Of a DNA stretch of 64,000 nt, positions 1-64,000 are shown piece by piece. A program made the translations under genes and the position numbers. Where the stretch lies: the NCBI GenBank assembly GCA_027603945.1, contig JADIIU010000054.1, positions 20,587 to 84,586 on the forward strand, in the 5' to 3' direction. The notes under the pieces were generated by a model that did no database searches, was not told the DNA's origin, and saw nothing but the letters and a program-made list of their open reading frames with translations. Position 1 is the stretch's first letter. Each line of letters opens with the position of its first letter. The DNA comes from Terramyces sp. JEL0728. Taxonomy: Eukaryota; Chytridiomycota; Chytridiomycetes; Rhizophydiales; Terramycetaceae.

Positions 1-349
1 AAGAAGTACGGCCCAGCTACCTTCATTACCTATTCAATAGTATCAGTAGTATCTTGCACCACATGGTAATTAATACTAAGTTAGGCTAACCCTCCTTTCC
101 TTTGGAGTTGATTTAGCTCCACTAACTGCCGAAATTAATAAGGTGCGACACTACATATTTGCAGATCAGGATAATATCGATTTTGATACTCACGGAAAAG
201 CAGACTGGACTACCGTAGTAGGAGTTACTTGGGTTATACACACTGTAATTATGCCTGTTAGGGTAGGCATCACTGCAATATTTACGCCGGCTGTTGCCAG
301 GATTCTTCAGAGGAGAGGCTGGATACTTAAAAAAAGTAGATTTGAATAA
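1..349 (+). CDS. DUF1279 (FAM210/NAT2-like) membrane protein, 5' truncated
   Basis: The C-terminal end of a gene that enters from the left edge. After removal of a 19-nt intron at 66-84 (GT..AG with an internal ACTAA box) the frame reads through KKYGPATFITYS, FGVDLAPLTAEINK and MPVRVGITAIFTPAVARIL to a TAA at 347-349. The KKYG start, the hydrophobic helix and the MPVRVGIT-TPAVAR segment fit the DUF1279 domain of FAM210-type mitochondrial or inner-membrane proteins, whose role is poorly defined. The start and any targeting peptide lie outside the window. The stop falls just before an AAAC stretch and the next possible gene is convergent. The family call rests on motif memory, not on a search. 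Confidence 0.6.
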
Positions 350-613
350 ACTGCATAATCCATGGGTACAGTTAGTAGTTTGATCTCGACCAACTATCTG
401 GAAACCGCTTAGTAAGGCTAACGCTGAAGCATTATGGCAAAATTCCGTGTCGTGTTCAATTGGTGGTTCATTATTCATGCAGGCTTTGTGAGCTTGTGCA
501 AGGCGAAAAAAGTTTTCGCGCATACAATAGACCCATGCCCAACAGGCATCCCAGATAAACTCAGCTCCCATAAATATTCCATATCTCAATGCTATCAATA
601 AAACAAACCACAA
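307..613 (-). CDS. possible small cysteine-rich hypothetical protein
   Basis: A minus-strand frame stays open from about 613 downward and encodes a Trp/Cys-rich segment (FIWDACWAWVYCM, then ENFFRLAQAHKACMNNEPP). It has no ATG at its 5' end; the first in-frame ATG is the one before GAEFIW. A possible 19-nt intron (GT..AG) would end the protein near 307, in which case its tail overlaps the 3' end of the DUF1279 gene. The composition looks protein-like and the stretch 350-775 otherwise holds no gene, but I do not recognise a family and the exon structure is uncertain. The rest of the gap up to 775 is A-rich leader of the PABP gene. Confidence 0.3.
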
Positions 614-775
614 TAATCTGACTCACAGAAAAATAGCCCTAACCCTACGTGGCGTGAGATAAAAAAAAATCAAAAAATCAAAACAAACCTCACTTTCTGT
701 CAACTTTCTTTCTTCAAAAAAGTTACTAAACAACTCCATAACCTACTAAAAATCAAAAAAAATCAAAAAATCATA

Positions 776-2635
<1,860 letters not shown>

Positions 2636-2915: not shown

Positions 2916-5176
2916 ATGACTATCCCCAGCTTGACAATGCAGCAAAAATCCGCCCAAGCAGTGTTCGTATTGGATAGCAAATCGTCAGATCAGCTACTAG
3001 AAGCGCTGAGATTTATTAAAAATTCAATTATTGGCAACCCCACTAGAAAGGAGCATTACTTGAAAAAACTGGATATTGCTCCAAAGTACGTTTCTTTAAT
3101 AGTAGACTTGTCGATTGTCTAGTCAGATACAAATCAGACCCGGAATTGATGGGAGAGATAGCACCGATTATCGGGAGTCTAGCACAGCACGATGTTACAG
3201 TACTGATTGAAGCTGGAGTGTTACTGCCGCTTTTCGAAGCATTAGATTCCCAAGATACTAGGGTATTAGAAGCCACGGCAAGAGCGCTACGTTCTGTAGT
3301 ACAGCACCCATTATCAATCCCATTAAACTCCATTACTGTACCAAATCAATAACCCTAGACAGGGCATATCTATAATTTGGTGACTCTTTCAAAACCGCCG
3401 TCAAATAAGCCAGCAAAGGCAAACATTGCAGAGATATCCATCAGCATTTTGGCAAGATTGGCCAACTCTGACTCGGAACGCGATCGAATTTCAAACGCTG
3501 GAGGAATACCAATTCTAGTAGAATGGCTAAATGATAGATGGTCACATACATCTCGTGTACAGGAATCGGCACTTGATGCATTGGCAAGTTTGTGTAAGAC
3601 TAGCACAAGCCTCGGCGAAACTATTTCTCATTATAAAAGTACGGGATGTCTAACAACAGCCGAGTCTGGAAAATCTGTTTCGCACATTTTGTTTAAATTG
3701 TTACACGATAAGCGATCCTCCATGCGTTTAGGTGCTGCAACATGGTAAGTAATTTTTTATCCAGTATCACATATTTATACAAAACCGGATCGCTACCGAT
3801 TGATTATCAAGATCAGATTTCGCATCAGTTACTTTCCTGTATAGTTAGGCTGTTTGATGATACAGCCAGTCTTACTTCTCAACTAGGAATGAACATTACC
3901 ACCGTTCAAGAACGATCTGTTGCTCTATTTGCTTGTTTGATGGATAAGGATGCCAAACTTCAAGTTGCTGCGCTAGTACAATCATCTAATAGTAGGAAGG
4001 AGACGCAATTACCAGACTAGTGAGAATATTTACCACATGCACCCCATCTATCACTGATCCCGGCATCGCTTGTGGAGATAAAACAATCGAAAGTTTATTG
4101 CAAGCAATAGCTGCAGTTTCGTCTATTACAGAAGAATGTAGAAGACAGATTATTGATTTGAAACTTATTCCACACATCGTCAGTTATCTGGAACATCCAA
4201 ATGTTGCGATACGAATTGCAGCCTGTAACTGTGCCAGATCTCTGTCTAGGAGCGTTAAAACCTTGCGCACCAGCCTAATGGACGCGGGAATCGCCACTCC
4301 ACTATTTAAATTATTGTTTGATACCGATATTAATGTCCAAATCACCGCAACAGCCACTATTTGCAATATTGTCTTGGAATTTTCGCCAATGAAAAAGATT
4401 ATTATTGAACAAGGAGGAGTAAAGCAACTTGTTGCCCTTGTACAATCGCCTAGCCATGAACTAAAGCTAAATGCCTCTTGGGCACTAAAGAATATGCTCT
4501 TCAACTCAGATTTAGATACCAAAAAGAATGTCATTTCCCATTTGGGTTGGGGTGGGCTCGAAAGGTTATCATTTCTTACTTTAGGCTATTACAAGACCCA
4601 AACATTGAAATACAAGGGCAGGCACTTAATTTACTTCGCAATCTAGCATGCGCAAAGATACCAGTAAGTTTTCTTGATACCAGGATATTGATTTCGTGCT
4701 ACAAGGATATGGCAGAGATAATTTGTTGAATATGTTGGAAATCAAGCTCATGAATATGTACGACTATCCACAAGTCCTGTTGCATGTATTTTCATCCTAA
4801 TTTAGTCCATCTACATTATTGTAAATATTGCAGTTGGTTCATTCGAGCACAAGACTTGTATAATCCAAAGATCGAGGATACTCGATTCAATAATGTCACT
4901 TTTGGTAATAACCATCTAATCCAGAACCATGAAAATGACAAAGTGCGTGTTGGATGCATATGGTGCATCATAAATCTAACATGGGCAGAAGATCCGAGCT
5001 CAAGTGACCGGGTGAATTTGTTCAAGCGAATGGGTGCAGAAACGAAGCTGAAAATACTGTCCAAAAATGATGTGAGCTTGGATGCTAGGGATCGTGCCCA
5101 AACTGCGCTCTCTAACTTGGCTGGAAATACAGGTGTCTACCAGAGCCATACTGCTGCTAGTGGCCCTGAAATCTAG
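2916..5176 (+). CDS. ARMC8: Armadillo-repeat protein, ARMC8/GID5-like
   Basis: Predicted scaffold subunit of the GID/CTLH E3 ubiquitin ligase. Eight introns were placed at 3086-3105, 3338-3358, 3745-3764, 3976-3995, 4565-4584, 4664-4683, 4786-4805 and 4905-4924; seven are exactly 20 nt and one is 21. Removing them gives one frame of 699 aa, close to animal ARMC8 (about 670). The protein is a chain of ARM repeats, for example ILARLANSDSERDRISNAGG, LLQDPNIEIQGQALNLLRNL and VRVGCIWCIINLTWAED. The N-terminus (LLEALRFIKNSIIGN) resembles the ARMC8 start. The alternative is another ARM/importin-like protein; length and the last repeat favour ARMC8. The coding length after splicing is divisible by three, which supports the intron model. 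Confidence 0.8.
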
Positions 5177-6544: not shown

Positions 6545-8671
6545 ATGCCTAAAAAGAACCTCGAAAAACAATCATCAGTACTATCAATGTCCTCCTATTG
6601 CAAGTAATCCGTTACTCACAGCTAGTCTACTGGACGATGCGCTAGACAAGCCATTTGCAATCAAAGCAGAAAAACAGGCCGAGTATAATAATTTGACATT
6701 TAATTCTGACGTTCCGTTTCTCAGGACATCCAGCAATTCCGACATATTTACCTCGATCGATCATTCAGGAAGCGGTATTTGACTACTAAACGGTAGAGCC
6801 TCAGTTATTGCCGCTCGACTGGACGAAATTCGGGGAGTCTGAAGTGAATTTAGACTCGCAAACTCTAATGTCATCAAATAGCACACATGTAATGAGCTCT
6901 GGCGATGTTAAAAATTGCTGGCCATTTGTATTCGAGTCCCATTATAAAGATTCGTCAAGTGAGTATTCAAATGTGATTGATCCTACTCAACTCGAAGCAA
7001 AAGAATCAAGCCAGCAACTGGCACTTCCGATTGACAACGGAACTGGTGCAGGAGGTACATTAGCACCTTACTCTAGCTTCTCCTTATTACTCTAATAACT
7101 TTCCTACCATGTCCAAAGCCAATTCCGCGTTGGAAGCTGTCAAAATGCTTGGCGCCACGACTTTCAGCTCGTCTTTCGTGGAACGATTAATCGATGAATC
7201 GGAAAATGAACGAAACCTAAAAGCCGAGATCTATCCAAATTATTTGGCATCTGAACATTCACAACTACAGCTACACCCCGCTCTCACGGCTAATCAAAAA
7301 ACTATAGATCCATCAATATACTCTTCCTGGAACCCTGCTCAACATTGGGGGATGTCTCATCAAAATATATGCCCTTCCATGACATCTTCCAATACAATTA
7401 AGGCCGTCGAGACCTCTTCATCCGGATCAAAGAGAGGAAAAGTCTCCAACGCCGACACAACTGGGAACAGGAGAAAGACAATCCAGCATACTATCATATG
7501 CACTGAATGTAATTTTGATTTGGGTATCGCGTTTATTAGAGGTGCTCCTTGCGGTGACAATGACAATGGCCCTATCAATGCGGTCTGCCAAAATTGTTCT
7601 GGAAAATCCCCACATGTACATTATGAAAATATAAACGATCAAAGAAAAAGAAAACGGCGCGAATCGAAAACTATTGACTGTGAAGTTTGCCATTCAAAGA
7701 TTGGAAACGGCGGTCTAAGTGGGCATTTGAGTGCTCCAGAAATAAAAGTAGAGTTTGTGTGCGGTGACTGCGGGGTAAAGTACATGTTTTGCTCTGAATG
7801 TGGTGGAGGTGGGAAACAACGCACTGGAAAATGGCGACCTAGGGAATTGTTTGAACAAGGAAGAAGAACATGTTCTCTGCCGCACATTCGAGTCGGGACT
7901 GCAGAATTACATTACAAAGTAATAAGAGCAAATGAATTGACTTCGGACATCTTGCAAGGCATCCAAGATGTGTTTTTTGATTGCTTGCTATCTCTCTACT
8001 GTGTACCATCAGTAATGTCATCAAATAGATATAATACTTTCGAGACAATCAAACGAGAAATCGAAAGACTTTGGGTTACTTCAGTGTTGGATGTATTAAC
8101 GAATAATGTGTTAAATGGTCGAAAGTATGTAACCGTTGCCTGGATCCACAAGAGACATCGCAACAAGGGGATTGGCAGATCCAACCCAACAAAAGAAATT
8201 ATACCATGGTTGAAACGATTGGGTCTGTCTGGGATTATCAGCCCGTCCAAATTCGCCTCTAGTCAAGACTCTGAAGAAAAGCATCACTGTTTTGTAGCGT
8301 TTTCAATTGCAGAATGGGATCCAGTTAACCAATCCATTTTCATGGCACAAATGGCTCCTAGAAGTGTGTTTTTGAAAACTATGGAAGGATACATTGAATT
8401 AATAAGAAATTGCATCCAGCAAATACAAAAAGACGCTATTGACTGTCACCAAAATTTGCCAGAGCACATTTGGTGTTGGACAAAGGCCGATCATGCAAGG
8501 CTCCAATCAATTCCAACCAGATTAAAGTTTGTTCCAAAAACAGACTATCTAGAAAGTAGACCTGATTTGGACAGCAACGCATTCGAAAGACATGATTACG
8601 AGCCATTGCAAGCTGAAGGGACTGCTGTATATGCAGCTCCGACTAAAACATTCATTTCATCAAAAGATTAG
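6545..8671 (+). CDS. zinc-ribbon protein with GNAT-like motif, unknown function
   Basis: Three 22-nt introns (6604-6625, 6775-6796, 7055-7076) join a 686-aa protein. The first about 270 residues are Ser/Asn-rich and look disordered, with a basic patch (SGSKRGKVSN). The middle carries CxxC pairs: CTEC, CQNC, CEVC, CGDC and CSEC, followed by GKWRPRELFEQGRRTCSLPH, a stretch I associate loosely with uncharacterised fungal proteins. The C-terminal third contains KYVTVAWIHKRHRNKGIGR, which resembles the RxxGIG acetyl-CoA motif of GNAT enzymes. A nuclear regulator or acetyltransferase is possible but not shown. An exon upstream of 6545 cannot be excluded, since the leader holds further AG sites. Confidence 0.7.
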
Positions 8672-8752: not shown

Positions 8753-9528
8753 TCACTCACTGGCATATGCACCTTCTTCATCAGATTCGTTCCGATACTC
8801 GTCAATATTCAATGGCCAGTCTTCAGCAGGCATTTCCTTAACTTTTTGAACCATCTTTTCAAGATATTCTTCACGTTGTTGATACACACTCGGAGAAATT
8901 TCTGGATATTCGTTTGAAAAATCTTGCATCATATCACTCACCCCTTGCAAATCCAACCATTCGGCAGGTTCTACGTACTCTTCAAGTGGAGCGATGGGTT
9001 CACTGTCTGGTTCTGGTACATTGGACTCTTCAATAATTGGCTGAGGTTCAGGCACGACAGGCTATATCAGCAAATTAATACTTCAGTTTGTGAGATTGAT
9101 TCGTGACGCTCCCATGCAGAATCCAGAACTGAGTCGTACTTTGGTTTGGCTGGGATTGGCTATATAAAAGACGTATTACCGCTGCTGGCTTCCGCATTGG
9201 AGGGTGGGGAGTAGATTTAACGGGGTTTTTTGATATAAAGGTAGCCGTATTGGTCGTATACTCTCCAATCTCGGTTCGGAAAGGCAGGGGAGAAGCCGTT
9301 TTCTTTTTCACTAGAGTGGAGACTGGCGGCTGCTTCTTTGGCTCTGCGGGTTTCTTACCTTTGACAAATGTGCTGATCTTCTTTGGAACTTTTGCAGGTG
9401 GTTTTGGACTTTCTGAATTATATGCATCTAAAGAATTAATACCTGCAAATGAAAAAAGAATAATACCGGGGTTTAATGATTTATAAACTCTTAACCACTA
9501 ACACCAAAAACTCTCAAACGCTTTTCAT
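8753..9528 (-). CDS. disordered acidic/proline-rich protein, 229 aa
   Basis: Minus-strand gene assembled from four introns: 9498-9519, 9443-9466, 9160-9179 and 9062-9081 (22, 24, 20 and 20 nt). The product starts MKSWLRVYKSLNPGINSL, then runs through Lys/Pro-rich sequence (PAKVPKKISTFVKGKKP) and ends in an acidic tail with WPLNIDEYRNESDEEGAY. No membrane segment or known domain is visible and I do not recognise it. The first two introns lie in the least constrained part, so the first 20 residues are uncertain. It sits 139 bp downstream of the BET gene on the same strand. Confidence 0.55.
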
Positions 9529-9667
9529 TCTTTACAACGGATATTAAAAAAAGTCAAAAAATATAGGATAGATGATTCACATTAAAAAAGTAAGATTGGC
9601 GTTGAAAGCTGATGGGTTCATGGCTATTTATAGAGTTTATAAACATAACCACCATCAACATATTATT

Positions 9668-11446
9668 CTAGTCGCTAGCACTACCTGAATCATCTTCATC
9701 CGATTCAGATGAACTGGAAGCAGCTAAGGTTAAACGAGTAACTACCTCCGCCAGTGGCAGTGCCGTTTTCATCGTCCAATTTTGCCTTCTTTGGTGGCCG
9801 TGTGTGTTTTTTGACAAACAAATATAATTTCCACAACACTGCTTTATCCAAAGAATCAATGTCTAATTCAATCTCTTCATCCTCCGCAGCCTACGATGAG
9901 AAAACGGCTACCTGTAGTTGTGTGTTTTCTTTAATGATTTCAAAGACTTGTGGTAGCTTTTCCGGTGGTAAAATATTAATATTATCAGATAGTTCGCGTT
10001 TTTGTTCGTATGTAATGTCGGTTTCTGGCATTTTTTCATCATCAGTGTCATTATGTGGTCTCTTTTTCTTGTTGCTCTTTTTATCAGATGATTTGGATTT
10101 GGACTTTTTTTTGACAGACGCTAGTCCAGGAGGTGCTACAGCTCCTGCTGGCCCGCTGATCGACTTTCTCTTCTTCTTCTTGGCGCGCTTTTCTGTAAGC
10201 ATTTGAAGTTGTTGATTAAGTAGTACCAGTTGTGATTTTAACATTTGAATGTGTCTTGCGTCTTCATCTAGAGTTATTCAATATTACCATCATCATCTTC
10301 ATCAGATGTTTCGTCGAGTCCAGACATTTTCCTAACCTTTGATTCGCCGTGTTGTAGCAAGAAAGTAGTCTTTTCAGCCCATTTTAAATTAAACAAAGAT
10401 TCAAGCTGTTTTCCATAGTTATATACTTCTGTTCCGACTGCGTTGAACGCAAAACAATTATTTAGCATTAGGCGAAAGTCTTCTTCATAATCTTCTGCAG
10501 ACAAGTATTCCGAAGAGTCTAGTTTCTTTTTGATTGTTGATAAATCCATGGGACGAGTGACGATGGTGCGATACTGGGGAATGCCCATTGCTTCAGGGTC
10601 AACAGGGGTCAAAAATGGCCATACAAAATGGCTATATTGCTTGCGTGTAACCTCGCGATGGATATGGTTACAAAATTTCATGTCCAGCAGAGACTTTTTT
10701 GATAATAATCTTTTCTTTCCGTCTTCATGTACAGTCTCTCGCCTTGGTCTGGAATCCGGGGGAATCTCACGCAAACCCTAAGTTTAGGATGTTCAACATA
10801 AGCAACTAGATCACAAAATATTAACGCAATAATATCTCTAGCTTGTGTCTAATAGTGTACTTACCAATCCAATATCTGATTTGCGCTTCTTTTTTGCTTC
10901 CACTTGCTCCAAACTCTTTGGCACCTTTTCCCATTCCTTTTCAAACCATTTATGTAATTCTTTTGCCATTAGACCTACCGCTGAATCTGGTCCGTTAAAG
11001 GTATAGCAATTGTTGAACATTAGCTCAACATCATCGAAAGCTTCTTTGGCGGATTGATAGCTGGAAAGTTTCTTTTCAACGGTTGAAATATCCATTGGAT
11101 GTTTGATTACATCGAAATATGTTGGAATATTAAGAGCGGTTGGATCTACTGGGCTGTGAAATATGTGAGATCCCTTTCGACGCTTCATGTTCTTGATCAT
11201 CGTGCCAGCCCATTTAAGTTGCTCCTTCAACAATAAAGGATCTTGCTCGTGCTGTTCCGGCTGATCTACAGTCTAACATTAACAGATCGTTTGCCTGTTC
11301 TTCCTCCTGTTGGGTATATGCTTCAGTTACTTGAGATATCTCTTCCTCTTTCACTTCCTGTTGAAACACAGGCTCCTTTTTGCTTATTTCAGGTCTGCTA
11401 TTAGTAAAAATGGTTACTCTTGCTCTTGCTTGAGCTCAACAGTCAT
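9668..11446 (-). CDS. BET-family double-bromodomain protein (Bdf1/BRD-like)
   Basis: A nuclear acetyl-histone reader of about 536 aa that usually works with TFIID. Bromodomain 1 contains FHSPVDPTALNIPTYFDVIK, PMDISTV and the acetyl-lysine Asn in MFNNCYTFN. Bromodomain 2 contains FLTPVDPEAMGIPQYRTIV and MLNNCFAFN. A NET domain follows (TYEQKRELSDNINILPPEKL .. IELDIDSLDKAVLWKLYLFV), then an acidic Ser tail (SEED). Introns: 11398-11417, 11273-11294 (a GC-AG intron), 10842-10864, 10806-10825, 10778-10797, 10268-10287, 9891-9911 and 9724-9745. Between the bromodomains this model needs two micro-exons of 16 and 8 nt; a single 87-nt intron would also keep the frame. The domain order is diagnostic of BET proteins. 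Confidence 0.93.
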
Positions 11447-41388: not shown

Positions 41389-41490
41389 GATGGAAATTGC
41401 ATCATTATTCATCTTCTATTTGCCCTGCCGATGTTTATAATGCTGTGTTAGATGACTCAAATCCAGAAAAAAAAAGTTTCTAATCAAAAA

Positions 41491-42760: not shown

Positions 42761-44056
<1,296 letters not shown>

Positions 44057-45568: not shown

Positions 45569-47158
<1,590 letters not shown>

Positions 47159-50892: not shown

Positions 50893-52064
50893 ATGAGAAT
50901 TACAATCACAACTGAGCAAGGGCAAATTCACACTCTGGATGTAGATCAAGATATGGAAATCATCAACTTGAAAGCATTAATCGAAGCTGACTTGCAATAT
51001 CCAACCGCCAGCCAGCAATTGTATCACAATGGGAAGCTGTTAGCCAACGATAAAAGCTCAATTAAAGCCGCAGGGATTGTACAGGACGACATTCTTCTCG
51101 TTCGAATTGCTGCTGAATCGATTAGCCAGGCTGAACAAGTTAGAAGAAGAATTTTGGCTGATCCTTCATTAAGATCGCATATGGTTCAAGTAAGATTAAT
51201 TTGACTGATAGCAATATCCGCCAATGGAACAAGCCTTAAATAACCCTCAACAGTTTGAGAGGATATTTAGCGAAATGCAAAGACAAGCTCAAATGCAAAG
51301 ACAGGCAATTAGCACCAGTGACGATCCATTTGACATTGAATCACAAAGGAGGATTGAAGAGGAAATTAGAAAGCAAAACATACAACAAAATTTGGGGGTA
51401 TTCAAATTTAATAGTAGAACGCAATGGAGCATCACCCAGAATCTTTTGGGAGGGTGATTATGCTCTACATAAACGTGATGGTAAATGGACACCCTGTAAA
51501 AGCTTTTGTTGATTCTGGAGCACAGGCTACCATCATGAGTCCTGAATGCGCTCAAAAATGCCATGTTATGCACTTGCTAGATGACCGGTAATGATTTTTG
51601 TTTATTGAGATTTGCTGGGATTGCCAAAGGAGTTGGCACTGCCAAGATTCTTGGAAGAATACACAGTACTCAAATTAAAGTTGGAAACCAGTTTTTACAC
51701 TGCTCTTTGACTGTGATGGAAGGCAAAGACGTTGATTTGTTGTTTGGGCTGGACATGCTGAAACGGCACTTGGTAAATACAATTAATTCAGGCATGTATT
51801 GATCTAGAAAAGAATGTTCTCCGTATCAATGGGGAAGAGGTTCCATTTTTATCGGAACACGAATTACCAGAGAACGCCAAAGAACCAGCGCCAACTCCAC
51901 AAGAGCAACCACAACAATCATCATCCCAGCCTACCACATCAACATATCCTGAAGACATTATTAACAATCTTATTTCTTTGGGTGTGAGTAGGGAAGAAGC
52001 GATCTCTGCGTTGGAAGCAGCTGGTGGAAACCCTGATGTTGCTGCTGGCATCCTCTTTCAGTAA
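50893..52064 (+). CDS. DDI1: DNA-damage inducible protein DDI1
   Basis: A 362-aa ubiquitin receptor with a retroviral-type aspartic protease fold. Introns: 51190-51211, 51397-51416, 51588-51609 and 51773-51791. Ubiquitin-like domain: [20 protein letters not shown]. Protease core: [20 protein letters not shown] (active Asp in DSGA), [11 protein letters not shown] and [19 protein letters not shown] domain forms the C-terminus ([20 protein letters not shown]). It works as a shuttle and protease for highly ubiquitinated proteins. All three domains are intact. Confidence 0.98.
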
Positions 52065-52103: not shown

Positions 52104-53747
52104 TTAACCGATGGTAGCAGATTTTAGGGATTTAACTGTAACTGGCCCATCCTTGGTTTGGAAAGCTACACCTTTATACAAAGCAATGCATTCTTCTGAA
52201 GTAGCAAAGTCAACTGCAACTTTTTCAAAGATCTTGTGTTTCGGATTCAAGACTGCGTCAGGGGTATTGTGGTACCCTTCAAAGAATATTGGTTCTCCAA
52301 TAACTGAATCTTCTGCTGGTTCTAGCAATTCCACGGTGGTCTTGTCAGAGTTTGAGGCTGCCAATACCATGCCTGCAGATAACACGCCTGCAAATTTAGC
52401 TGGTTTTAAGTTTGCCGCAACTACGACTAATTTGCCGCTTAGTTCTTCTTTTGTGATAAATTGCGCTAGTCCACTAACAATTGTTCTAGGCCCAGTTTCT
52501 TCTCCGAGATCAATCTTTTCGACATACAAATTCTAAAATAAGCTATCAATTACGTCCCGTTCTGGATGTGATTCGACACTCAGCACTTTACCCACACGAA
52601 GGTCAAGACGCGAAATTTCCGAAGTAATCTTTGGGACTGGGGGTGGGTAAGCTTCCAAAGTAAGTTTTTGTAATTCTTCACTTTCTTCCCAAATCTTTCT
52701 AATTGGTTCCAAGAGCCTGTTCAAAGCAACGGCAGTAGCCGCCTTCAAGTCGCCTGGATGCAATTCTTTCTTTTCGAAAGCTTGTTCCAATGCATCGTAG
52801 GTCGAATAAGCAACGTTTCCTCCAAACTTCTCTGGTCTAGTGACTTGGAACTTGTAGCCATGCCCACCAAGCGTATTTATTGGGAAAATGACTGCTTTTA
52901 CGAATGCAAGTAGAGGATTGTCTACAATGTTTCCTTCTTCGCAGAAAGCCTTTTTCAACTTGTTCCCGACTGATTCTGCGGAATCTAAAAGATCTACCTT
53001 GGAATCAGGGTCGGAAGAACTCATTTTGGATCCACTTAGACCTCCAACCATAGCATTCATCAAATGGGATCTTTTCTTGTATCCTAACACCGGTAGGTAC
53101 TTTTCTGCAAAGGTAAAGATTTTTCTCTGGTCAACCCCACCAAACTGGCAATCAACATCCAAATATTCTTCATCTAACGCTTGAAGCAAAGGATAAATCA
53201 ATCCCGATAGAGATGGCGATTCGACTTGCTTTACCACCTCAGCCCCGGCTTTCTTGGAATCACGGACAGAGGTGATAGCAGTTAATCTATAAACGTCAAG
53301 AGTATATTTTTCAGATAACTTGGTTAAAAAAATCTACTTGGAACGAGGTGCCAAACACAAATTTCAACTTTTCGATTGGAACGCCAATAGAAGAGAGCAT
53401 CGCTTTTATAACGGCTTCGTAATATTTAGCTCGTAATTTTAGCAATGACCATGGTGCTTTCATGTTATCCAAGTATGCATGTAAATCGGCAAAAAGAATT
53501 GTAACATGGCAACCGGCTTGAAGCAAGTCCGCAATCTTTGCCATTGGCACAAAATAGCCTATTATCAAGTTTCCACCTACCAATGTGCGGTTTCCCAGTG
53601 GTTGCAGTCCCCCAATATACTTTCAGGTCTCTTTCCGCCAGGACTTCCTTAATGCGATCACCTCCCAGATGTTCTTGTAAATTTCTAGTAATGAGCTCAA
53701 ACCTGAGTTAGTAATAAGCATTACTTTTCTTGAGCTGATTGGGTCAT
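52104..53747 (-). CDS. YARS1: Tyrosyl-tRNA synthetase, cytosolic, with EMAPII-like tail
   Basis: A 519-aa class I synthetase. Introns 53703-53724, 53559-53580, 53319-53337 and 52533-52553. Catalytic motifs: HIGH-like [16 protein letters not shown] (restored by splicing) and KMSSS in [14 protein letters not shown]. The C-terminal about 170 residues form a tRNA-binding EMAPII/Arc1-like domain: [51 protein letters not shown]. This arrangement is the animal cytosolic type; yeast TyrRS ends without EMAPII. The stop overlaps TTAATAAA on the coding strand. Confidence 0.97.
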
Positions 53748-53793: not shown

Positions 53794-55552
53794 ATGACTC
53801 AGCTGAATCTCACGCCTAGAATAGGGAATGTGTTGGATTTTAATGATACTGGAGCAATAAAAGAGTAAAGGATCCTAATTGCAAGGGAATTTGATCCAAG
53901 GAATAAATTGAAGAGTAATCTGCAGCTTATTCAATTGGAACGATATCATGAAAAGCAGGATGAAAATATCCCAATGTCAGCAGAAAAAATCAAAGAGATT
54001 ATATTGTAATTGATACATTAAACTAGCTATGCGAGAGAAGAGATGCAAATCACTTTTGATATAGCTGCTAGACTAGTTGCAAGTCAATTATTGAGTCCAT
54101 CCGAGTTGGAGAAATCAGAAGAGGCCTATTTGAAAACATGTGTTGGAGCAAAATCAGTCCAGATGTCGAATGTAGTGAAATTGCAAAAAGCGCAGTATAT
54201 TGAATCAATCAAAAATCAGGTAAGCTTAAATTAACATTGAACATTACTTCTTTTGTTGAGTATCTACTCCAGCGCAAAGATGAGTCCTCGAGAATGCTGG
54301 AGACAGCCCAAAAATTCTTTATGGAGTTAGCTTTCGAACTTTTGAAAAGGAATTGGGTTCTCCAAGAACGAATCTGGAGTCCAATCAAGGGGATCTTGTT
54401 TGTGATCTACGGTTTTGTAAATGGTTTAAATTGGTTTGACTTTAGATGGGTCTGTGATCCCTGAAATTGGAGAAGCAGATATCTGGAGATTGACATTGTC
54501 TTCGGATAAAAGTAAAGAAGATGGATTTGATGTTATATGTAATCACAATACTTTGCTGGTGACAGCGATTACAATCGTGCCGCTGGAACACGAATATGGA
54601 TTGGATTGGGGACGTCCGCTGGTTGAAAGCGATTCTTTTTCGGTAATCAAAAGATTGCAAGGTGCAAGAAACTCTATTTTTGAAAAGGATTTGTTCCATA
54701 AAGTAATTTTGAATAACTGTTAGATAATGCAAGAAGTATCTGGAAATGACAGCATGTTTAGGAAATGCGTCATAACAACAAAGAAAATCATCATACCAAC
54801 AATTGAAAATTGCTATATACAGGTTTCCCTAGAAAATGCGGCTGAGGATATTAATAGCAAGCTGTCTAAGCCAAGCCAATTCAGCTATGTGCAAATATTG
54901 GCCAGAAAACTTCTTCGAGAGTCGCACACACAAAGACTCAATGATAAATCGACAAAGAAACGACCTTGGAATATCACTACAAAGATTATAAAGTATTTGG
55001 ACAAGCAATTATTATCTGCAAAGTTGAATGAAACTTTTGCGGAATTTGAAGGCATATTATCAAAGATTTGCCAAACACAGCTATCGAGGTCGTCGGACAA
55101 GTGGAAAATCCAGCTGTCTTTTACTGGCAGCGATGTTTTTTACTTTGGATGTAGTCTATCAGATTCAGGACAACTGTATTATACCTCCAGCCAAACCCAC
55201 AAATTGGAATTGTTTTCTGTATTATATCTGGAAGAGCTTGTAGCATCCCTTGTAAGCAAGCGGATATTTGAATTACTCAAAGAAGAAGTCTGCTGTCTAT
55301 TTGGATATGATGTAGGCGGTGAAAACAATACGGTTGAAATAGATAATAGGTACTAGAACTTAACCCAGGGTGATTTCGGTAAAGGGGAAGAAAATTCACG
55401 ATCTAGCTATTGAAATCGTAGATGGGACTAATAAGATCCTGAAAATTACCTGTATGTCGGATAATTTGCAAAGGACTCTTGTGAGATTATTGCTTAATAA
55501 TAAATCGAAAAATCATTACGCGTACTTGGACTTGAAATGGAAAACTCGATAA
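53794..55552 (+). CDS. MED17: Mediator subunit 17 (MED17/Srb4)-like
   Basis: 544 aa, a predicted head-module subunit of Mediator. Introns: 53865-53885, 54006-54026, 54220-54239, 54424-54445, 54703-54723 and 55350-55368. The third is 20 nt but ends in TTG; the nearest AG gives 41 nt and deletes NITSFVE. With the short form the text ITSFVEYLLQRKDESS resembles the F-x-SLLLSK segment of MED17 proteins, then FFMELAFELLKRNWVLQERI and GILFVIYGFVNDGSVIPEIG. The C-terminal half (AYLDLKW end) is generic alpha/beta. The call rests on the middle region and on size; it could be another Mediator-like protein. Confidence 0.62.
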
Positions 55553-55560: not shown

Positions 55561-58153
55561 ATGAAAATGGAAAACTTCAAGAGCAAGGACTATTCTCCTA
55601 GAGAATTAGTTGAGGCTGCAAATAAGAAAACTGTCACCGAATTTAAGGGGATTGGTAATACATTAGTAACACAGCCTTCGACCCCAAGCCGTTTATCAGA
55701 TCATTTGAAGGGTTGACAGAGGAGTTACTGCGTCTTAAAAGGAAGTTGCAAAACAAAATTGAGGACCAGGAGGATCAGCTAACCGCTTCGGAAAACTCAA
55801 AACGAAAGGCATTCTTTGATTTCAATGAAACGTTTGATGTAACTTTCCTTGATATTAGGAAGTGAATCGATCATTTGAGCATCTAAATTCGCGTTTAAGT
55901 GAAGTTGGAAACACTGCCATCAGGATAGGTTACACGCTGCTAATGTTAGGAGAACAGCTGGAAACAATAGATAAACATAGAACTAGGGCTTCAGAGTCAA
56001 AAGATATTATTCAATATTTTCTAGAGTTCAACAAAGGGTCGTTTTCGAGGCTGGACGCTCTTAGGAAGGAAAGTCCCGAAGGAGAACGCAAGGTACGCTA
56101 TTTTCAATGCAGACGGCAATTATTGCTCGAAGATTAAACACCATTGCCAAGGAAATCGATATTGGAGGAATCGATGCGGTAGTTTTGTGTTAACTCAGGC
56201 GAGAGCAAACATTGAAAAGTACTGCGAACACTTTGAGAAGAGCTTGTTGCAAAAATTTGATCAAGTGTACAGCAGCGCGGACAGAGACACTATGAATGTA
56301 ATGAAGTATTAATGGTAGCATATCGCAAAGACGTTGATTGATTTTAATGGCGGAAACTCTTGTATTCAAACATACGTAAATCAACATGCCTTCTTTATCA
56401 ATATATTGAAGATTGCCGAAACAGATACAGAAAATTTAGGGGAAACGTACTCTTGATTAACGTTAGAACTTGGGAAAGTCAAAAATTATCATCGCTGCAA
56501 AGATTATTTGACGAGATTCGACAAGCCATTTCATCGGAATGGGATGTGATTTACGACGTCTTTCCTAATGCGACAAATGTCATACAAGTATTTGTTCAGA
56601 GAATTTTTGCTCAGTCGATTCAAAACTTTTTGGAAGTACTCATGCAGGAAGCGTCATTCAAATCTTCACAGATATATTTGGAAGTTTTGACAAGATCTCA
56701 CAAAGAAACGTCAGATCTGGTAGCAGATTTACACCTTTTCGATGAAAACTATATTTTGCCTCTGACAGGATCACTCGCACTGGCAAATATTTTGGACCGA
56801 TCATTTGAAGATTTATATATCCCATACGTAAATGATGAAAAATACATGAAAACTGAAAAGAGTTGGCTAAACGAGTCATTTAGTATCGCAATGGAAGATT
56901 TCGAAGCCAAGCTAGTATTCTCAGCTAACTTAGGAAAATATCCAAAAAGCCAAAGTACAGGGGAAACCCAATGGAAAGCAGCCGTCAACTCCAAAAGATT
57001 CTAATATTTTTGTCAGCTCATTAATTAACACGGTGACTACCATGACATCGGAACTCAAGCAGCAATTAGCCACCCCAGCGTCAAACCTTACTCCAACGAT
57101 TGATGATTCAAAGCCTATTCCTACTGTTGCAACTTGTTTGAAGTGCATCGAATCTAACTTGACTTCAATGGAGAGAGCAAAGGAATTGTTTGATGATACT
57201 GAGCTGTAACTATTTTTCATTTTAGAGCAGAAGCAGTTTCTATCCTCTTCAAGCTATTCCTCGACCGTATGGGAGAACGATATGTTTATCATAGCTTAGA
57301 CACGTATATATTACTAAAAAAGTGTGCTCGAGGAAATAGGTTCCCAGGACCCAAAAACTCAGCCGGAAATAGGTTCCTTCGGTATCGTCAAAGTTTCAAA
57401 CGAAATTGCTCAGCTGTCACATTTGCACTTTCAAAACTGTGAAGTATCCACTGTTTTACATAGGGATTGGTCCTGAAAAACTCTCTGACAATTCACAGAG
57501 AATTGAGTATCTGCAAAAACGACTTTTGTAGTAACATTGAAAACAAAATCAATTCTATAATGCAAAGGCAATTGCTCGGTAAGTCTCCTTAATCAAAGTC
57601 AATTTAAATTGGATAGAGAGCATTTTGGCAAAACAGAAAAAAACGGATTACAACATGAAGGATGGATTGCTTGGAAACACTATCCCAACTCAGACTAGCA
57701 ATCAAATTATTGAATTTCTGCGTCGTATTTCTGCAGAGGCATTTGGATATTTGGATGAGGGAAATAGAGATTTATATCTCACTGAAATTGGAACTTTATT
57801 GTGCAAGTATTGCATTGCTAACTGAGGCTATTGCTGGACCACATTAAAAAATTCCAGTTTACGTACAGCGGTGGATTAATCCTATCTACGTAAAAATGTA
57901 TAACCCTAGTGATATAACAAGGTATCATGAAATAGTGATTCAGTTCCGTGTTGAAAATCTTGACGAATATTTCAATGTTTTGAAGGAATTGTGCAATCTT
58001 TACATTGTAAAGCCGGAAAACCTAAGAATGGTGCTTCAAGAAGGATACCTTGGAAGGATGGAACTTCCAGTGTTACACTCTTATATTAGCTTGCGAGCAG
58101 ACTGGTCAAAATTGGGGAAATTGGAAAAGGATTTATTTTACATTACCCAATAG
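55561..58153 (+). CDS. SEC10: Exocyst subunit Sec10 (EXOC5)
   Basis: A 777-aa helical-rod exocyst protein that tethers secretory vesicles. Thirteen introns of 19-21 nt: 55655-55674, 55839-55858, 56093-56112, 56179-56198, 56298-56318, 56447-56466, 56915-56933, 57207-57226, 57304-57322, 57444-57463, 57580-57599, 57807-57826 and 57890-57909. Their removal yields one frame. The N-terminal FDPKPFIRSFEGLTEELLRL, the GYTLLMLGEQLETIDKHRTR segment, AKQKKTDYN and the C-terminal LPVLHSYISLRADWSKLGKL follow the Sec10 order. The start codon is 8 bp after the MED17 stop, without room for an independent promoter outside that gene. Confidence 0.9.
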
Positions 58154-58156
58154 ATA

Positions 58157-58807
58157 TCACTTTTTTGATTTTTTCTTTTCTTTCTTTGAGTTTTCTTCTT
58201 CTTCAATTAGCTCTTGAGCGATTCGTTCCCTTTCAGCTTCCTCATCGACAGGTTGCGGTGGTTGTTGATCAGGAGATGCTTCAGGATTCTGCGGTCCAGT
58301 GGTTTGTTGAGTAGCTTGCTGCATCTTCATTTGCACTAGCTGAGACACTTCTTGTAAGAACGTAGCACTCCAATTGTCCTTGTACATGTTTGATTCTTCT
58401 AAAAGCTATGTCAAGAAATAATTACTTCTTGCATTTCAAGCTCAATCTCTGCTTCTGCTGCCAAAAGCTTTTCCCACAAACCCTCATTCACAATTCCTTC
58501 CTTCACCATTCCCTGTAATGGCGGTTTTTCATCCCTGATCCTGAATACTCTTGTAACTGCTTCAACAGCCCTCTTAAGCAATGCAGCAACTAGCACTTTC
58601 TTTCCAGTCGAGTCATCTGGTGAATACTGTTCTGCTAGTTCTTCGTATTCAAACTTTGCCTTGTTTAAAGGGAAATATCCTGAATCTTGACATTAAACCC
58701 TCTTTACCGACTTTCTTTGACTTTGATTTGATAATTCTTCCAACGAAAAAGAGTAATCCAAACAATCCTCCCACGTAAAATACTGGAAACAAAATCGCCA
58801 AATTCAT
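58157..58807 (-). CDS. SEC66: SEC66/SEC71 translocation subunit
   Basis: A 202-aa ER membrane protein of the fungal post-translational Sec62/63/66/72 translocon. Introns 58686-58707 (22 nt) and 58406-58425 (20 nt). One N-terminal membrane helix (FPVFYVGGLFGLLFFVGRII) is followed by the cytosolic domain LVAALLKRAVEAVTRVFRIR, LQGMVKEGIVNEGLWEKLLA and EAEIELEMQE, the Sec66 signature (LLRRA..RLRDSKPAL..LWQRFLxAE). The C-terminal tail is Gln/Pro and Lys rich. Sec66 is known mainly from fungi, so this gene is a useful lineage marker. Its stop is 3 bp from the convergent EXOC5 stop. Confidence 0.9.
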
Positions 58808-59514: not shown

Positions 59515-61118
59515 ATGCTTCGATCCAAGTTATTTCAATTGAGATATCTATCTCAAAATACAAAGGTCGCATCCACTGCTGAAGAGGCATTAAGCAGGGC
59601 AGGTCTATCTTCCTCCAAAACTATACTTGTTGGAGGTTTTGGGTTGTGCGGTACTTATCTGGTAATTATAGGTATTCCAATGTCATGTATCAAAGCAATT
59701 TCAAGGACTGATGTCAATGATCTCACTGTGGTTAGTAACAACTGTGGGGTAGATAATTGGGGACTAGGCATCCTCTTGAAGGCAGGAAAGATAAGAAGGT
59801 ACAAGTGCAATTGATTCAGAATGATTTCGTCTTACGTTGGAGAAAATAAGGAATTTGAAAGACAGTATTTGAACGGTGAACTTGAAGTTGAACTTGTGCC
59901 TCAAGGAACACTTGCTGAAAAACTTCGAGCTGGAGGTGCTGGGATACCTGCCTTTTTCACCAGAACGGCTGTAGGAACCATTGTGCAAGAAGGTGGATTT
60001 CCAATCAAATACGAGAAAGGTAGTAAAAAGGTAGAAATTGAAAGCCTGCCTAAAGAAACGCGTACATTTGTTAATGCAAGAACTAAAAAGGATCACAAGT
60101 ATGTTATGGAAGAAGCTATTACCGGTGATATTGCTGTGATTAAGGCGTGGAAAGGAGACAAGTTTGGAAATTTGGTTTTCAAAGGAACAGCTCAAAACTT
60201 CAATCCAGATGCAGCCAAAGCTGCTGATTTTGTTATCGCTGAAGTCGAAGAATTGGTCAACGTTGGAGAAATTCAACCAGAAAGTGTCCATCTTCCTGGA
60301 GTCTATGTTCACACGATTGTCCATTCACCAAATGAAGAAAAACGAATTGAAAGAGTAACTGTAAACACACCGAAATCGTCGGATGAAGAAGTCAGTCCTG
60401 CTGCAAAAATGAGGGAATTGATAGTAAGAAGGGCTGCAAGAGAGTTGAAGAATGGAATGAATGTTAATTTGGGGATCGGAATGCCAACTTTAGCTCCAAA
60501 TTTTGTTGCAGACGATGTTACTATCATGCTGCAATCAGAAAACGGACTGCTAGGTATCGGGCCATATCCTTCCAGAGAAGATGTGGATCCGGATTTGATT
60601 AATGCAGGGAAGGAAACGGTCAGTATGATTCCTGGTTCTTCAATTTTTACCTCGTCTGAATCGTTTGCCATGATTCGTGGAGGGTATCTTTTAATTAATC
60701 TAGTCATATTGATATATCTATCCTTGGAGCAATGGTAATTATGAATTAATATTTACAGCAAGTATCTGAAGATGGATCTCTAGCTAATTGGATTATTCCG
60801 GGGAAAATGGTGAAAGGAATGGGGTATATGATTTACTAACTTAGTGGTGCAATGGATCTAGTGAGCTCAGGTAGTAAAGTGGTAGTTGTAATGGAGCACA
60901 CCGCGAAAGGAGGCAAACCCAAAATATTGAAAAAATGCACTCTCCCACTTACTGGCATTAGATGTGTTAATCGAATAATTACGGAACTCGCGGTATTTGA
61001 TGTCACTGAGAGTGGGTTGGAGCTCGTTGAGCTTGCTGCTGATGTAACCGTAGATCAATTGAAAGAAGTAACCGAAGCTGCATTCAAGGTTTCTCCGAAT
61101 TTGAAAGTCGGCTATTAA
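59515..61118 (+). CDS. OXCT1: Succinyl-CoA:3-ketoacid CoA transferase (SCOT/OXCT1)
   Basis: A 498-aa mitochondrial CoA transferase that activates acetoacetate with succinyl-CoA. Introns: 59651-59671 (21 nt and stopless), 59799-59819, 60684-60703, 60735-60758 and 60824-60844. A basic N-terminus ([17 protein letters not shown]) looks like a mitochondrial presequence. The A half has [28 protein letters not shown] and [20 protein letters not shown]; the B half [12 protein letters not shown], the catalytic Glu in [13 protein letters not shown], and AMIRGG .. VKGMGGAMDLV. Both halves are fused as in animals. The stop abuts TTAAATAAA. Confidence 0.97.
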
Positions 61119-61174: not shown

Positions 61175-63329
61175 TTATAGTGGGTTTTGAACAACACTTT
61201 GATGCAGCTGCAGGTTAGAAATTACCTTACTGTGGTAAAAAATGGATAGAAAACCAAAAAATCCATAAAATTCATTTCAGGTCGACTTTGCTTATCAGAT
61301 AATATTTCGCCAAATATCAATTTTTTCATTTCCACAGATTTTTCTGGAGAGAGGTTGGCCATCTTTAAAATAATTTCAATGTTATCCCTGGATATTACTC
61401 CGCTCTCTGAATGAAGCATGAAAAGGTTCTGCATATTAGTAGGCTATTACTTTAAGTTTTCTGATTTCGTTAGCGATATCGTTAAAATCAAAGTATTCAA
61501 ACGCAACCGAAACTTTGTTTTTCAGAGTGGACAATTTTTCTGCCAATGCTGCAAATATCACAAATACCTTTCGTGTAACAGATTCCACCTGAAATTCATC
61601 GAAAATCTAGGTAAGGTGTAAAAGTACTTTCTGAATGTATTCCAACGATTGTTCATTAAGATTGGGGAATACGTTATGAATACTCTCACCAAACAAAATT
61701 GTTGAAATCGTTTCTTCCACAAAGAGTGGGTCAATTTTTCTTAAAAGTTTGGATTTCAATACAGGATTTAACAGTGAAACTGAGTTGATATAATCCAATG
61801 AAAATGGTATTTGGTCTGTGTTTGAAAGGAAATCTCTTAATAGCGAGCTATGTTTCTGGTATTTGTGACCCAAGTGTTGCAGTGTCTTTGAAGATTTAAC
61901 TTTAGTCGAATTGCGAACTTCACTGGGTAAAAAGGATGTTTCGTTGAAGTTAATAGCCGTTGGTCCAGATTTCATGATATTACGTGCTATATTTTTGGAG
62001 TGATTTGTGCTAGGTATATATTTAATAATATTAAGATCGATATCTTGCTCTGTGGTCATCTTGATAGGTTGATTTTTGCTTGACCTATCCAAATAATTGC
62101 TTGAAGTTAATTTTTTCAAATTAGATTCTTTCTGATGTTTCTTTTCTGGTTGAAATGCTAATAAGTTGCTTTCTGAAGGAAGATGTTGGTAATCCAATTT
62201 TACGTATGGAAAATCAATATCTGTTCCATCCAATCTATTTACTTGATTTGCCTCCACTAAATTCAGTTCACTTGTTGCATTGGATATACCGGAGTAATAT
62301 TCGCTTGTCGAATTGGCTGTTATACCTTCAGTAGCATGTTGATTCTTATGTGATTTATTTTGGGAAAATACAGTTTCCTCTATCTGTTGTTGATTTTGCT
62401 TTTGTGCCAGATTTATTGATGAAATCGATTTTAGCGGTGTATTCGCAATCGCAATTGGAGATGGGATTTTGGTGCTTCTTGTTGTTTCCGTATAGTTGTT
62501 TGATTGAAAGGTATCGTTGTCATCTTGAAATAGTTTTTCATCACTTTGCGAATTTATTTCTTCAAATTCCAAAGTATTGTAGGTTTCCGTCAGTGGATTA
62601 AGGTTTGTGTTATCGGACAATTCAAATTCGTTCATTTCTGCCATGTTTGGTGCAATTTCTGGCCCAGATATTCTGTTTTTGTTCCGGTGGTTAACAACTT
62701 GTTTTTCTACAAATTTATTCGGATATCTCTTTTCAGACGACAGCAGAACCATTGGGGCATCGCTATATATCCTAACTGACTTTTTTGCCCTATGTGGAAG
62801 CAAAGTATCTATCCGACTCCTGTTTGGTGATGGCACACTGATTGTGTTCACGAATGCCCTAAAATAATTATCTTGTCCTTTCGATTGCCCAAGGACAATT
62901 GTAACATTCTTATCATAATGTGGTATTTCAGATATTCTTTTCTATTATAAATATGAATTTTACCCAGTGAGTTTCCCTCGAAGTTAAAGTTCGATATTCT
63001 GGCCGAATATTGCGCTGAACACACTTTTGTTTTTTGTAATCGAAAACAATTTTTGAATTATCGAAACAACTCTTTGATTTAAATTGAAGTTCCTCGTTTT
63101 GGCAGCTATTTTTCTTGAATTTTGCTCTATGCACAGGTGCATCTAACTTTATATTACCTAAATTAATTGCAGGCTTACGCTCTATATACATCTGAATTGA
63201 AAATTTCGCAGATGAATGTAAACAAGAAAATTGGTATTGTTCTGAAATATGCACGTGAGGACTAAACAAGACAGAAATAAATATTTGAGTATTTGTTGAG
63301 CTTATGCAAGCGTAGTTGGTTAAAGGCAT
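61175..63329 (-). CDS. unrecognised protein with disordered N-terminus and EF-hand-like C-terminus
   Basis: Introns 62942-62963, 61607-61627, 61429-61450 and probably 61208-61230 join 688 aa. The first 450 residues are Ser/Asn/Gln-rich and disordered. The C-terminal 190 residues are helical and resemble a degenerate EF-hand pair (FEYFDFNDIANEIRKLKNLF, ISRDNIEIILKMANLSPE, NFMDFLVFYPFF), without intact calcium loops. The start could instead be the ATG at 63189-63191 (MYIERKPAINLGN). The end is uncertain because an 18-nt or 23-nt splice, or none, all leave a short tail. Such layouts occur in ciliary proteins, but I do not assign a function. Confidence 0.62.
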
Positions 63330-63427
63330 TTGTTTTCACGTCGTAAAATACACTCACATATATGAAAACATTGGTGCATTTCCAATTAAACTAAATCCGT
63401 TGATTGAAGCTTTATTTTTAAATTTTC

Positions 63428-64000
63428 CTAAGCAGAAGTGGATGCAGTTTTTTCGGCTTCCAATAGCAATTTGATCCCTTCGTATAATGAACAAATAATA
63501 TCAGCTTCTTCAATCATGAGTCTGGCAGAAGGTGATATGTCAACGGTACCGTCTTCGCCAATTGGAGTGTGTTCGCCACCTAGTCCTCTAACAGATAACC
63601 CTAACGGCTTGCAAACAGCCTTTGCCATTTTATCACTGCCCCCTTTTGTTAATGCTGGAATTTTGATATGAACTGAAGCTCGCATACCAGTGCCTAGGTT
63701 TGTAGGGCAGCTTGTGACGAATCCATAGTTATTTGCCTTTGCAAACTTGTCAGCATGCTTTTCAACGACTTTTTCTGCAAGCTGAAGCCGATCGAATACA
63801 TTATTCAACACTGTTCCTTGCACCATGCACATAATTCGTAGGTGATCTTCTTCGCCGACCCATACAATGAATTCTTTGTCGGCACTAACGTAGCAACCTC
63901 TTCCAAATGGCCAGTTGGACGAAATTCCAGCACTGTTCAAATACTTGTCGGCTGACATATCTTTGAACATGATGTGTTCCTTAACCAACTCTTGGTACTT
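63428..64000 (-). CDS. Phosphagen kinase (arginine/creatine kinase type), C-terminal part
   Basis: The last 190 codons of a guanidino kinase that runs off the right edge (its 5' end lies outside). Seen: NWPFGRGCYVSADKEFIVWV, GEEDHLRIMCM, the active-site Cys in TSCPTNLGTGMRASVHIKIP, SVRGLGGEHTP and the C-terminal helix. The catalytic Cys, the NEEDHLR-like Glu and the ATP-binding Arg residues are present. Substrate cannot be assigned from this half; GRGCYVSADK and GLGGEHTP resemble protist-type arginine kinases. These enzymes buffer ATP in flagellated or contractile cells and are rare in fungi. Confidence 0.93.
   Translation of the reverse strand, partial: KYQELVKEHIMFKDMSADKYLNSAGISSNWPFGRGCYVSADKEFIVWVGEEDHLRIMCMVQGTVLNNVFDRLQLAEKVVEKHADKFAKANNYGFVTSCPTNLGTGMRASVHIKIPALTKGGSDKMAKAVCKPLGLSVRGLGGEHTPIGEDGTVDISPSARLMIEEADIICSLYEGIKLLLEAEKTASTSA

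Follow-up and report, generated by a model that had tools for sequence, protein, structure and literature searches.

Evidence for spliceosomal introns compressed to about 20 nucleotides in the chytrid fungus Terramyces sp. JEL0728

Here we present an analysis of the introns in a 64,000-nucleotide (nt) stretch of DNA from Terramyces sp. JEL0728 (bases 20587-84586 of contig 54; hereafter the window), whose genome comprises 15,016,339 bases in 231 contigs. The introns of this organism are very probably U2-type spliceosomal introns compressed to about 18-22 nt, with a mode of 20 nt, across the nuclear genome and probably throughout its family; they would be removed by a spliceosome of canonical parts working on a near-fixed frame. 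The source is assigned to Fungi, Chytridiomycota, Rhizophydiales, Terramycetaceae. When spliced, three genes of the window match public Terramyces sp. JEL0728 proteins: EXOC5 with 99% identity (70% of the query), ARMC8 with 92% (100% of the query) and KNTC1 with 96% (100% of the query). The original prediction for this DNA had spoken of a 'fungal-like flagellate', which is right in substance: by the taxonomy of the matched proteins the host is a chytrid fungus, neither a ciliate nor a nucleomorph, and flagellate zoospores are typical of chytrids.

Introns of the window and of contig 1 form a class near 20 nt

Intron statistics were taken from a modelled sample of 264 kb, consisting of the window and 200 kb of contig 1. 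In the raw window, pairs of the motifs GTA...YTRAY-N1-3-AG peak at 19 (20 pairs), 20 (37 pairs) and 21 nt (15 pairs), over a background of roughly 4 pairs for each length from 25 to 80 nt. A matrix-free finder was applied to the 264 kb, the inputs of which were codon usage from long open reading frames, stop codons and one dinucleotide pair; it contained no splice matrix and had a flat length prior, any intron length of 10-500 nt being equally likely. With GT-AG, it called 15, 37, 18 and 8 introns of 19, 20, 21 and 22 nt, respectively (78 in total). Seven decoy dinucleotide pairs served as controls and gave totals over the same lengths of 9 (TG-AG), 4 (GT-GA), 10 (TG-GA), 3 (CT-AC), 12 (GA-TG), 5 (GC-AG) and 5 (AT-AC). 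Frame-restoring GT-AG ends thus exceed chance (78 versus 3-12).

A trained finder called 324 introns in 116 gene models of the same sample: 58 of 19 nt, 149 of 20 nt, 68 of 21 nt, 32 of 22 nt, 3 of 23 nt and 2 of 24 nt, the other 12 being longer. Introns of 19-24 nt account for 312 of the 324, with a mode of 20 nt; 91 of the 116 models bear introns, at a density of 1.9 per kb of coding sequence. The initial settings of the finder fused adjacent genes through long 'introns', and its costs were then tightened. It forces coding lengths to be divisible by three, and divisibility therefore carries no evidential weight. The claim of the original prediction that nearly all introns are 18-24 nt long with a mode of 20 nt is confirmed. 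Its tally of about 150 introns in some 37 genes was not reproduced, the finder calling fewer genes: for the window alone it gave 29 gene models with 103 introns, of which 99 measure 19-24 nt and 47 exactly 20 nt. Homologs added five introns in the window: Mo25 gained one of 18 nt, EXOC5 and ARMC8 one of 21 nt apiece, and KNTC1 one of 21 nt and one of 19 nt, as well as a sixth, probable intron of 26 nt. In-frame stops lie inside 64 of the 68 called 21-nt introns, a count that we leave uninterpreted because stop-free introns escape the finder; stop-free in-frame introns of 18 and 21 nt do occur as well and are easy to overlook.

Loci on other contigs were absent from the training but were called with the trained model. 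They gave 33 calls, or 29 when the overlapping loci L036 and L037 are counted once: 13 of 19 nt, 13 of 20 nt and one each of 21, 22 and 15 nt, so that 28 of the 29 distinct calls are 19-22 nt long. When the matrix and the length prior were both omitted, 11 of the 29 calls in these loci were 19-20 nt long and the remainder 23-478 nt (two overlapping loci being counted twice).

Positioned signals leave no room for a 3' polypyrimidine tract

The branch A was taken as that of the best motif match within each intron. Of the 312 trained-set introns in the 19-24 nt range, 244 have their best branch A at intron position 14-15, and 248 have it 5-6 nt ahead of the last G (115 at 5 nt, 133 at 6 nt). The commonest branch boxes are TTAAT (80), CTAAT (38), TTAAC (33) and CTAAC (25), and the acceptors are TAG (206), CAG (62), AAG (37) and GAG (7). 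The donor is GTA, most commonly followed by A at +4 (169), T at +5 (152) and T at +6 (185), with G at +5 in just 58 introns; given this preference for U over G at +5, an altered U1 or U6 deserves consideration.

In the matrix-free set, YTRAY stands at the expected place in 53 of the 78 introns, against a mean of 6.5 and a maximum of 13 in 500 shufflings, and against 65 of 2006 GT..AG decoys of 19-22 nt taken from exons, a set that includes some missed introns. The CTAAC/TTAAT-like box of the original prediction is found in place, and the prediction's example, GTAACATATATTAATCTTAG, was located at 17079-17098 on the minus strand. The stretch from donor to branch has 44% T and 24% A, compared with 31% T and 32% A in intergenic DNA. 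Downstream of the branch there is no space for a polypyrimidine tract; the U-rich stretch lies upstream. The branch-to-AG distance is nearly fixed and a 3' polypyrimidine tract is lacking, as in anchored branch-AG introns, and the branch box and the GTA donor are regular rather than degenerate, contrary to what is expected of ultra-short introns. Exonic decoys that score like the median intron fall from 0.31 to 0.024 per kb when length is limited to 19-22 nt rather than 12-100 nt, which is information that a length ruler could supply.

These positions suggest how such introns might be recognized. The frame would consist of a GTA donor and a branch A (YTRAY) at position 14-15, followed after 5-6 nt by the final G of an acceptor that is mostly TAG. 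SF1, and then U2, would read the branch site and the AG as a single block of about 10 nt. U2AF65, with no room downstream, may contact the U-rich stretch that precedes the branch site, may need little of it, or may act mainly through protein contacts. The near-constant length would be a ruler that offsets short, weak donor signals, and the short loop would restrict length to a narrow range.

Removal of the segments restores conserved proteins

The original prediction that seven of eight introns in ARMC8 and ten of thirteen in EXOC5 are of 20 nt is matched exactly by our calls (Table 1), and each gene has one further, in-frame 21-nt intron that prediction and finder alike had overlooked. We aligned the 13 EXOC5 junctions with 9 of 120 listed EXOC5 proteins and the 8 ARMC8 junctions with 10 of 71 listed ARMC8 proteins. 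At most of the 21 junctions, most homologs continue without a gap. The exceptions are the poorly alignable EXOC5 residues 31 and 411 and ARMC8 residue 127, and rows whose annotation is without an exon.

The seven residues encoded by the in-frame EXOC5 segment GTTACACGCTGCTAATGTTAG are missing in 9 of 11 public proteins, including all 7 distant ones. Excising the segment changes the gap count by -7 against 4 of 4 distant homologs and by +7 against Boothiomyces JEL0866. It reads GYTLLML here and GYAWLIT or GYATLNL in Boothiomyces JEL0866 and JEL0838, with identical flanks, whereas the public Terramyces and B. macroporosus models splice it out. A fast-changing insert between constant flanks at the same position is the pattern of a shared intron read as protein. 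Because a 21-nt segment in this position, diverged in sequence, is translated in two Boothiomyces annotations, the short-intron trait is, on this comparison, probably common to the family Terramycetaceae. The ARMC8 segment GTACGGGATGTCTAACAACAG is missing in 6 of 8 public proteins; its excision removes seven gaps from the alignments with 2 of 3 homologs and adds seven to that with Kappamyces. The KNTC1 segment GTACCAATAATCTAATATCAG is missing in 2 of 3 public proteins (both from Boothiomyces) and retained in the public Terramyces protein.

Some called or added in-frame segments could instead be lineage-specific protein insertions, as their unbroken reading frame and the retention of the EXOC5 segment in the two Boothiomyces annotations, and of the ARMC8 segment in Kappamyces, would allow. 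We regard this as very unlikely, since the segments carry intron ends and a branch box, the EXOC5 segment is spliced out in two public models and missing in the distant homologs, and the frame-shifting segments of 19, 20 and 22 nt would be left unexplained. Public proteins for EXOC5, ARMC8 and KNTC1 from Terramyces and Boothiomyces are without exons between tiny introns or have in-frame 21-nt introns kept as protein. The exon between the last two EXOC5 junctions (residues 675-696) is skipped in all three Boothiomyces annotations, as would follow from a merging of two tiny introns and the intervening exon into one intron.

Comparison with chains of the Protein Data Bank (PDB) extends the protein continuity to other genes. 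Spliced RPT6 is matched over residues 6-396 with one gap of a single residue. The succinyl-CoA:3-ketoacid CoA transferase is gapless at all five junctions, and tyrosyl-tRNA synthetase (TyrRS) at junctions 1-3, its fourth lying outside the aligned stretch. In Mo25, a six-residue insert relative to the PDB Mo25 points to an in-frame 18-nt intron, GTACGCGTTACTAACAAG. Six-residue inserts in TyrRS and the CoA transferase were tried as 18-nt introns in the same way and rejected, as no GT...AG fits.

The frame breaks might, finally, be indels of assembly or sequencing and the segments no introns at all, the letters coming from the assembly alone. That is next to impossible in our view: the removed lengths cluster at 19-22 nt, GT-AG ends are required, YTRAY boxes recur at a set position, and the spliced proteins are matched by distant homologs.

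The genome encodes core parts of a U2-type spliceosome

The genome contains a U2 small nuclear RNA (snRNA; 140 bits) with the canonical branch-binding stretch GUAGUA, which the branch motif of the introns matches, and a U5 snRNA (86 bits). It also encodes Prp8 and SF1, the latter with its N-terminal U2AF-binding and KH-QUA2 regions, and U2AF65. Once U2AF65 is spliced, PDB chains match it in its two RRMs and its C-terminal UHM, as well as in a stretch of fission-yeast U2AF59 that was crystallised with its small partner. Tiny introns lie within the U2AF65 and SF1 genes themselves.

Elimination of the segments at the DNA level, or their removal by a route other than the spliceosome, seems highly improbable. 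Their lengths do lie under the range usual outside ciliates and nucleomorphs; however, they have GT-AG ends, their branch motif is complementary to the U2 box of this genome, the genome holds U2, U5, SF1, U2AF65 and Prp8, and the introns of Stentor and Bigelowiella are spliceosomal precedents. The original prediction had taken the segments for spliceosomal introns and proposed a survey of U2AF, SF1 and U2 snRNA. All three were found (U2AF as U2AF65), and the spliceosomal reading agrees with the ends, the positioned YTRAY, the protein continuity at most junctions and the spliceosomal parts listed above.

Several observations were made alongside. The SF1 gene has a candidate 15-nt intron, GTTTATTAAAAATAG, with two in-frame stops (in the region 1195-1215 of locus L036, contig C39, minus strand). 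Two equal-scoring tRNA matches lie just downstream of the U5 gene (L038 1901-1982 and 2330-2411, contig C84). Two 27-bit U6 matches were judged spurious, being located in two near-identical loci; these loci, L031 (contig C199) and L032 (contig C111), at about 1401-1720, may reflect a recent duplication or two haplotypes. At the gathering score, Rfam models gave no match in the window or in contig 1:1-200000.

Points against, and the standing of longer introns

Several points weigh against the reading as compressed spliceosomal introns. The case is made from DNA and protein comparison, from which we infer splicing itself. The final matrices of the trained finder were learned on the same 264 kb from which the intron and branch statistics were taken; the matrix-free counts and the homolog alignments are independent of them. 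YTRAY stands at the expected place in only 12 of the 21 homology-confirmed introns of EXOC5 and ARMC8. An unexplained five-residue alignment gap adjoins the Mo25 junction at residue 32, and in spliced RPT6, aligned with a PDB chain over residues 6-396, the sole gap, of one residue, adjoins junction 249 in a glycine-rich loop. Unspliced U2AF65 scores 251.7 bits, under the curated family cut-off of 310.3. U1 and U6 snRNAs were not found in the whole genome by Rfam models, pattern or blastn, an empty result that is no proof of absence; divergence, internal introns or assembly gaps are possible reasons. Introns in untranslated regions (UTRs) are invisible to a frame-based method. Lastly, 12 of the 324 trained calls are longer (42-489 nt), 11 of these being candidates only.

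The last two points raise the possibility that short introns are the main class but that a real minority of longer ones, coding or UTR, exists beside them. The sole long call that was compared with homologs is one of four in the window (53, 87, 242 and 306 nt): the 306-nt intron in KNTC1, which was rejected because it holds coding sequence common to Boothiomyces as well as small introns. Rebuilt with introns of 19 nt (GTACTTTATAATTGATAAG) and 26 nt (GTAGGAGGTAAGTTTTTTGTAACAAG) and the in-frame 21-nt intron, KNTC1 has an open frame; in the alignment of its first 420 residues with Boothiomyces, which spans 412 positions, identity is 52%. Matrix-free calls of 61-500 nt are no commoner for GT-AG (164) than for the decoys (130-205) and are mostly gene fusions or noise. 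We therefore hold a longer minority to be unlikely, though with a chance well worth keeping in mind. The original prediction had needed no intron longer than about 40 nt in the window; the homologs agree with it for the 306-nt call, and the calls of 53, 87 and 242 nt remain candidates against it. Its single intron class holds for the modelled 264 kb, apart from 11 longer candidate calls of 324.

Gene models of the window

The coordinates of the gene models and introns are given in Table 1. The name of the poly(A)-binding-protein-like gene is presumed by us from its RRM matches. An intronless model stands at the edge of the window (63428-63970); it resembles, we believe, the C-terminal part of an arginine/creatine kinase.

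Table 1 Intron-bearing gene models and introns of the window
Feature	Position	Strand	Introns	Basis or remark
Poly(A)-binding-protein-like gene	776..2635	+	885-904, 1727-1748	RRM matches
ARMC8	2937..5176	+		Name from homolog search
ARMC8, 20-nt introns		+	3086-3105, 3745-3764, 3976-3995, 4565-4584, 4664-4683, 4786-4805, 4905-4924
ARMC8, 21-nt called intron		+	3338-3358
ARMC8, in-frame 21-nt intron GTACGGGATGTCTAACAACAG		+	3639-3659
Gene	6892..8671	+	7055-7076 (22 nt)
Bromodomain/BET gene	8753..11200	-	10268-10287, 9891-9911, 9724-9745, 9160-9179, 9062-9081
Bromodomain/BET gene, candidate longer introns		-	10778-10864 (87 nt), 9443-9684 (242 nt)
Gene	11948..13828	+	12424-12442, 13435-13454
Gene	13825..14524	-	14357-14376, 13994-14012, 13849-13870
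Gene	16175..17803	-	17079-17098 (GTAACATATATTAATCTTAG), 16887-16907, 16554-16572
Gene	21958..24715	+	23909-23930
Gene	25835..26326	-	26060-26079, 25956-25974
Gene	26363..27581	+	26741-26759
Gene	27595..28885	-	28344-28364, 28159-28180
Gene	29314..30084	+	29611-29630, 29779-29797
KNTC1 (two models in the finder)	31210..36512	-	36128-36147, 36046-36066, 35911-35930, 35322-35341, 34980-34999, 34601-34620, 33542-33562, 33353-33372, 32311-32330, 32094-32113, 31893-31913, 31635-31655, 31431-31450	Name from homolog search
KNTC1, in-frame 21-nt intron GTACCAATAATCTAATATCAG		-	36308-36328	Public-protein comparison
KNTC1, 19-nt intron GTACTTTATAATTGATAAG		-	35718-35736	Within the called 306-nt intron; homologs
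KNTC1, probable 26-nt intron GTAGGAGGTAAGTTTTTTGTAACAAG		-	35870-35895	Implied by public Terramyces protein
Mo25	36899..38012	+	36995-37016, 37078-37097, 37550-37570, 37637-37655, 37924-37944
Mo25, in-frame 18-nt intron GTACGCGTTACTAACAAG		+	37800-37817	Six-residue insert versus PDB Mo25
Gene	38997..40508	+	39706-39725, 39875-39893
Gene	41452..42665	+	41554-41573, 41841-41860, 41977-41995
Proteasome subunit RPT6	42784..44056	-	43982-44002, 43467-43485, 43249-43268, 42838-42859
Gene	45569..47158	-	47096-47115, 47033-47052, 46724-46743, 46588-46609, 46414-46433
Ubiquitin-like/aspartyl-protease gene	50893..52064	+	51190-51211, 51398-51417, 51588-51609, 51773-51791
TyrRS	52104..53747	-	53703-53724, 53559-53580, 53319-53337, 52533-52553
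Gene	53974..55552	+	54006-54026, 54424-54445, 54703-54723, 55350-55368	Candidate 53-nt intron, 54220-54272
EXOC5	55561..58153	+		Name from homolog search
EXOC5, 20-nt introns		+	55655-55674, 55839-55858, 56093-56112, 56179-56198, 56447-56466, 57206-57225, 57444-57463, 57579-57598, 57807-57826, 57890-57909
EXOC5, other called introns		+	56298-56318 (21 nt), 56915-56933 (19 nt), 57304-57322 (19 nt)
EXOC5, in-frame 21-nt intron GTTACACGCTGCTAATGTTAG		+	55929-55949	Homolog alignments
Gene	58157..58807	-	58680-58698, 58406-58425
Succinyl-CoA:3-ketoacid CoA transferase	59515..61118	+	59651-59671, 59799-59819, 60684-60703, 60735-60758 (24 nt), 60824-60844
Gene	61222..63191	-	62942-62963, 61607-61627, 61429-61450

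Discussion

The ciliate Stentor coeruleus has introns of 15-16 nt with the branch A at 10 or 11, a 5-nt tail and no strong branch consensus; 18% of its genes have introns, and its snRNAs and core spliceosome are conserved (PMC9505925). The introns of Terramyces are likewise nuclear, GT-AG and of a single tiny class, with a similar tail of 5-6 nt from branch to end, but they occur in 91 of 116 models and have a strong branch box. The Stentor introns demonstrate that a spliceosome can handle such lengths, and the similarity of the tails suggests a physical limit. The candidate 15-nt SF1 intron would equal the Stentor introns in shortness. In the nucleomorph of Bigelowiella natans, a relict endosymbiont nucleus, 373 kb hold 865 introns of 18-21 nt at about 3 per kb of coding sequence; these introns have no identifiable 5' splice-site motif, and U1 and U5 are shrunken (PMC6461891). 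Length range and density (1.9 per kb here) are alike, whereas the genome of Terramyces is nuclear and of 15 Mb, and its introns show a distinct GTA donor and branch box.

An anchored block of branch site and AG, with no 3' polypyrimidine tract, is also described for Yarrowia, Trichomonas and Giardia, in which the branch site lies at a set distance from the AG (PMC2483917). As characterized there, those organisms are intron-poor and their introns are not 20 nt long, in contrast to the intron-bearing majority of models here. According to the same source, very short introns tend toward degenerate sequences, and to this link Terramyces is an exception. Paramecium and Nyctotherus are portrayed as ciliates whose nuclear genomes have only very short introns, around 25 nt (PMC5014332, PMC2633312); Terramyces shares the nuclear setting and the restriction to very short introns but is a fungus, with introns of about 20 nt. 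Many fungi are intron-rich, and the introns of Cryptococcus neoformans, which average 63 bp, are deemed relatively short (PMC8476143). Terramyces shares GT-AG spliceosomal introns with these fungi and differs in having a length of about 20 nt.

What we describe is a new, fungal variant of the ultra-short spliceosomal introns previously described for ciliates and nucleomorphs. Among the matches listed in a search of openly licensed PMC papers, none dealt with chytrid introns of this shortness, which does not show absence from print. We lean towards the view that, among the known nuclear genomes of fungi and perhaps of opisthokonts, those of Terramycetaceae are the first whose introns are all about 20 nt long, some 18,000 introns as extrapolated from 264 kb of 15 Mb. 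SF1 and U2AF65 would have been kept without a downstream polypyrimidine tract, the branch site and AG would form one block, and length would itself be a recognition signal; the Stentor-like tail from branch to 3' end would have arisen by convergence, with a strong branch signal retained.

In the three genes checked, public chytrid models omit exons that lie between tiny introns and render in-frame 21-nt introns as protein. Ciliates and nucleomorphs are remote from the organisms whose splicing is understood, whereas a chytrid with introns of about 20 nt and conserved U2AF65, SF1, U2 and Prp8 would offer a case inside the Fungi, with relatives of the same order for comparison. This opens to test the minimal spacing of 5' splice site, branch and 3' end, the role of U2AF65 where there is no room for a tract, and the evolution of genome-wide intron compression.

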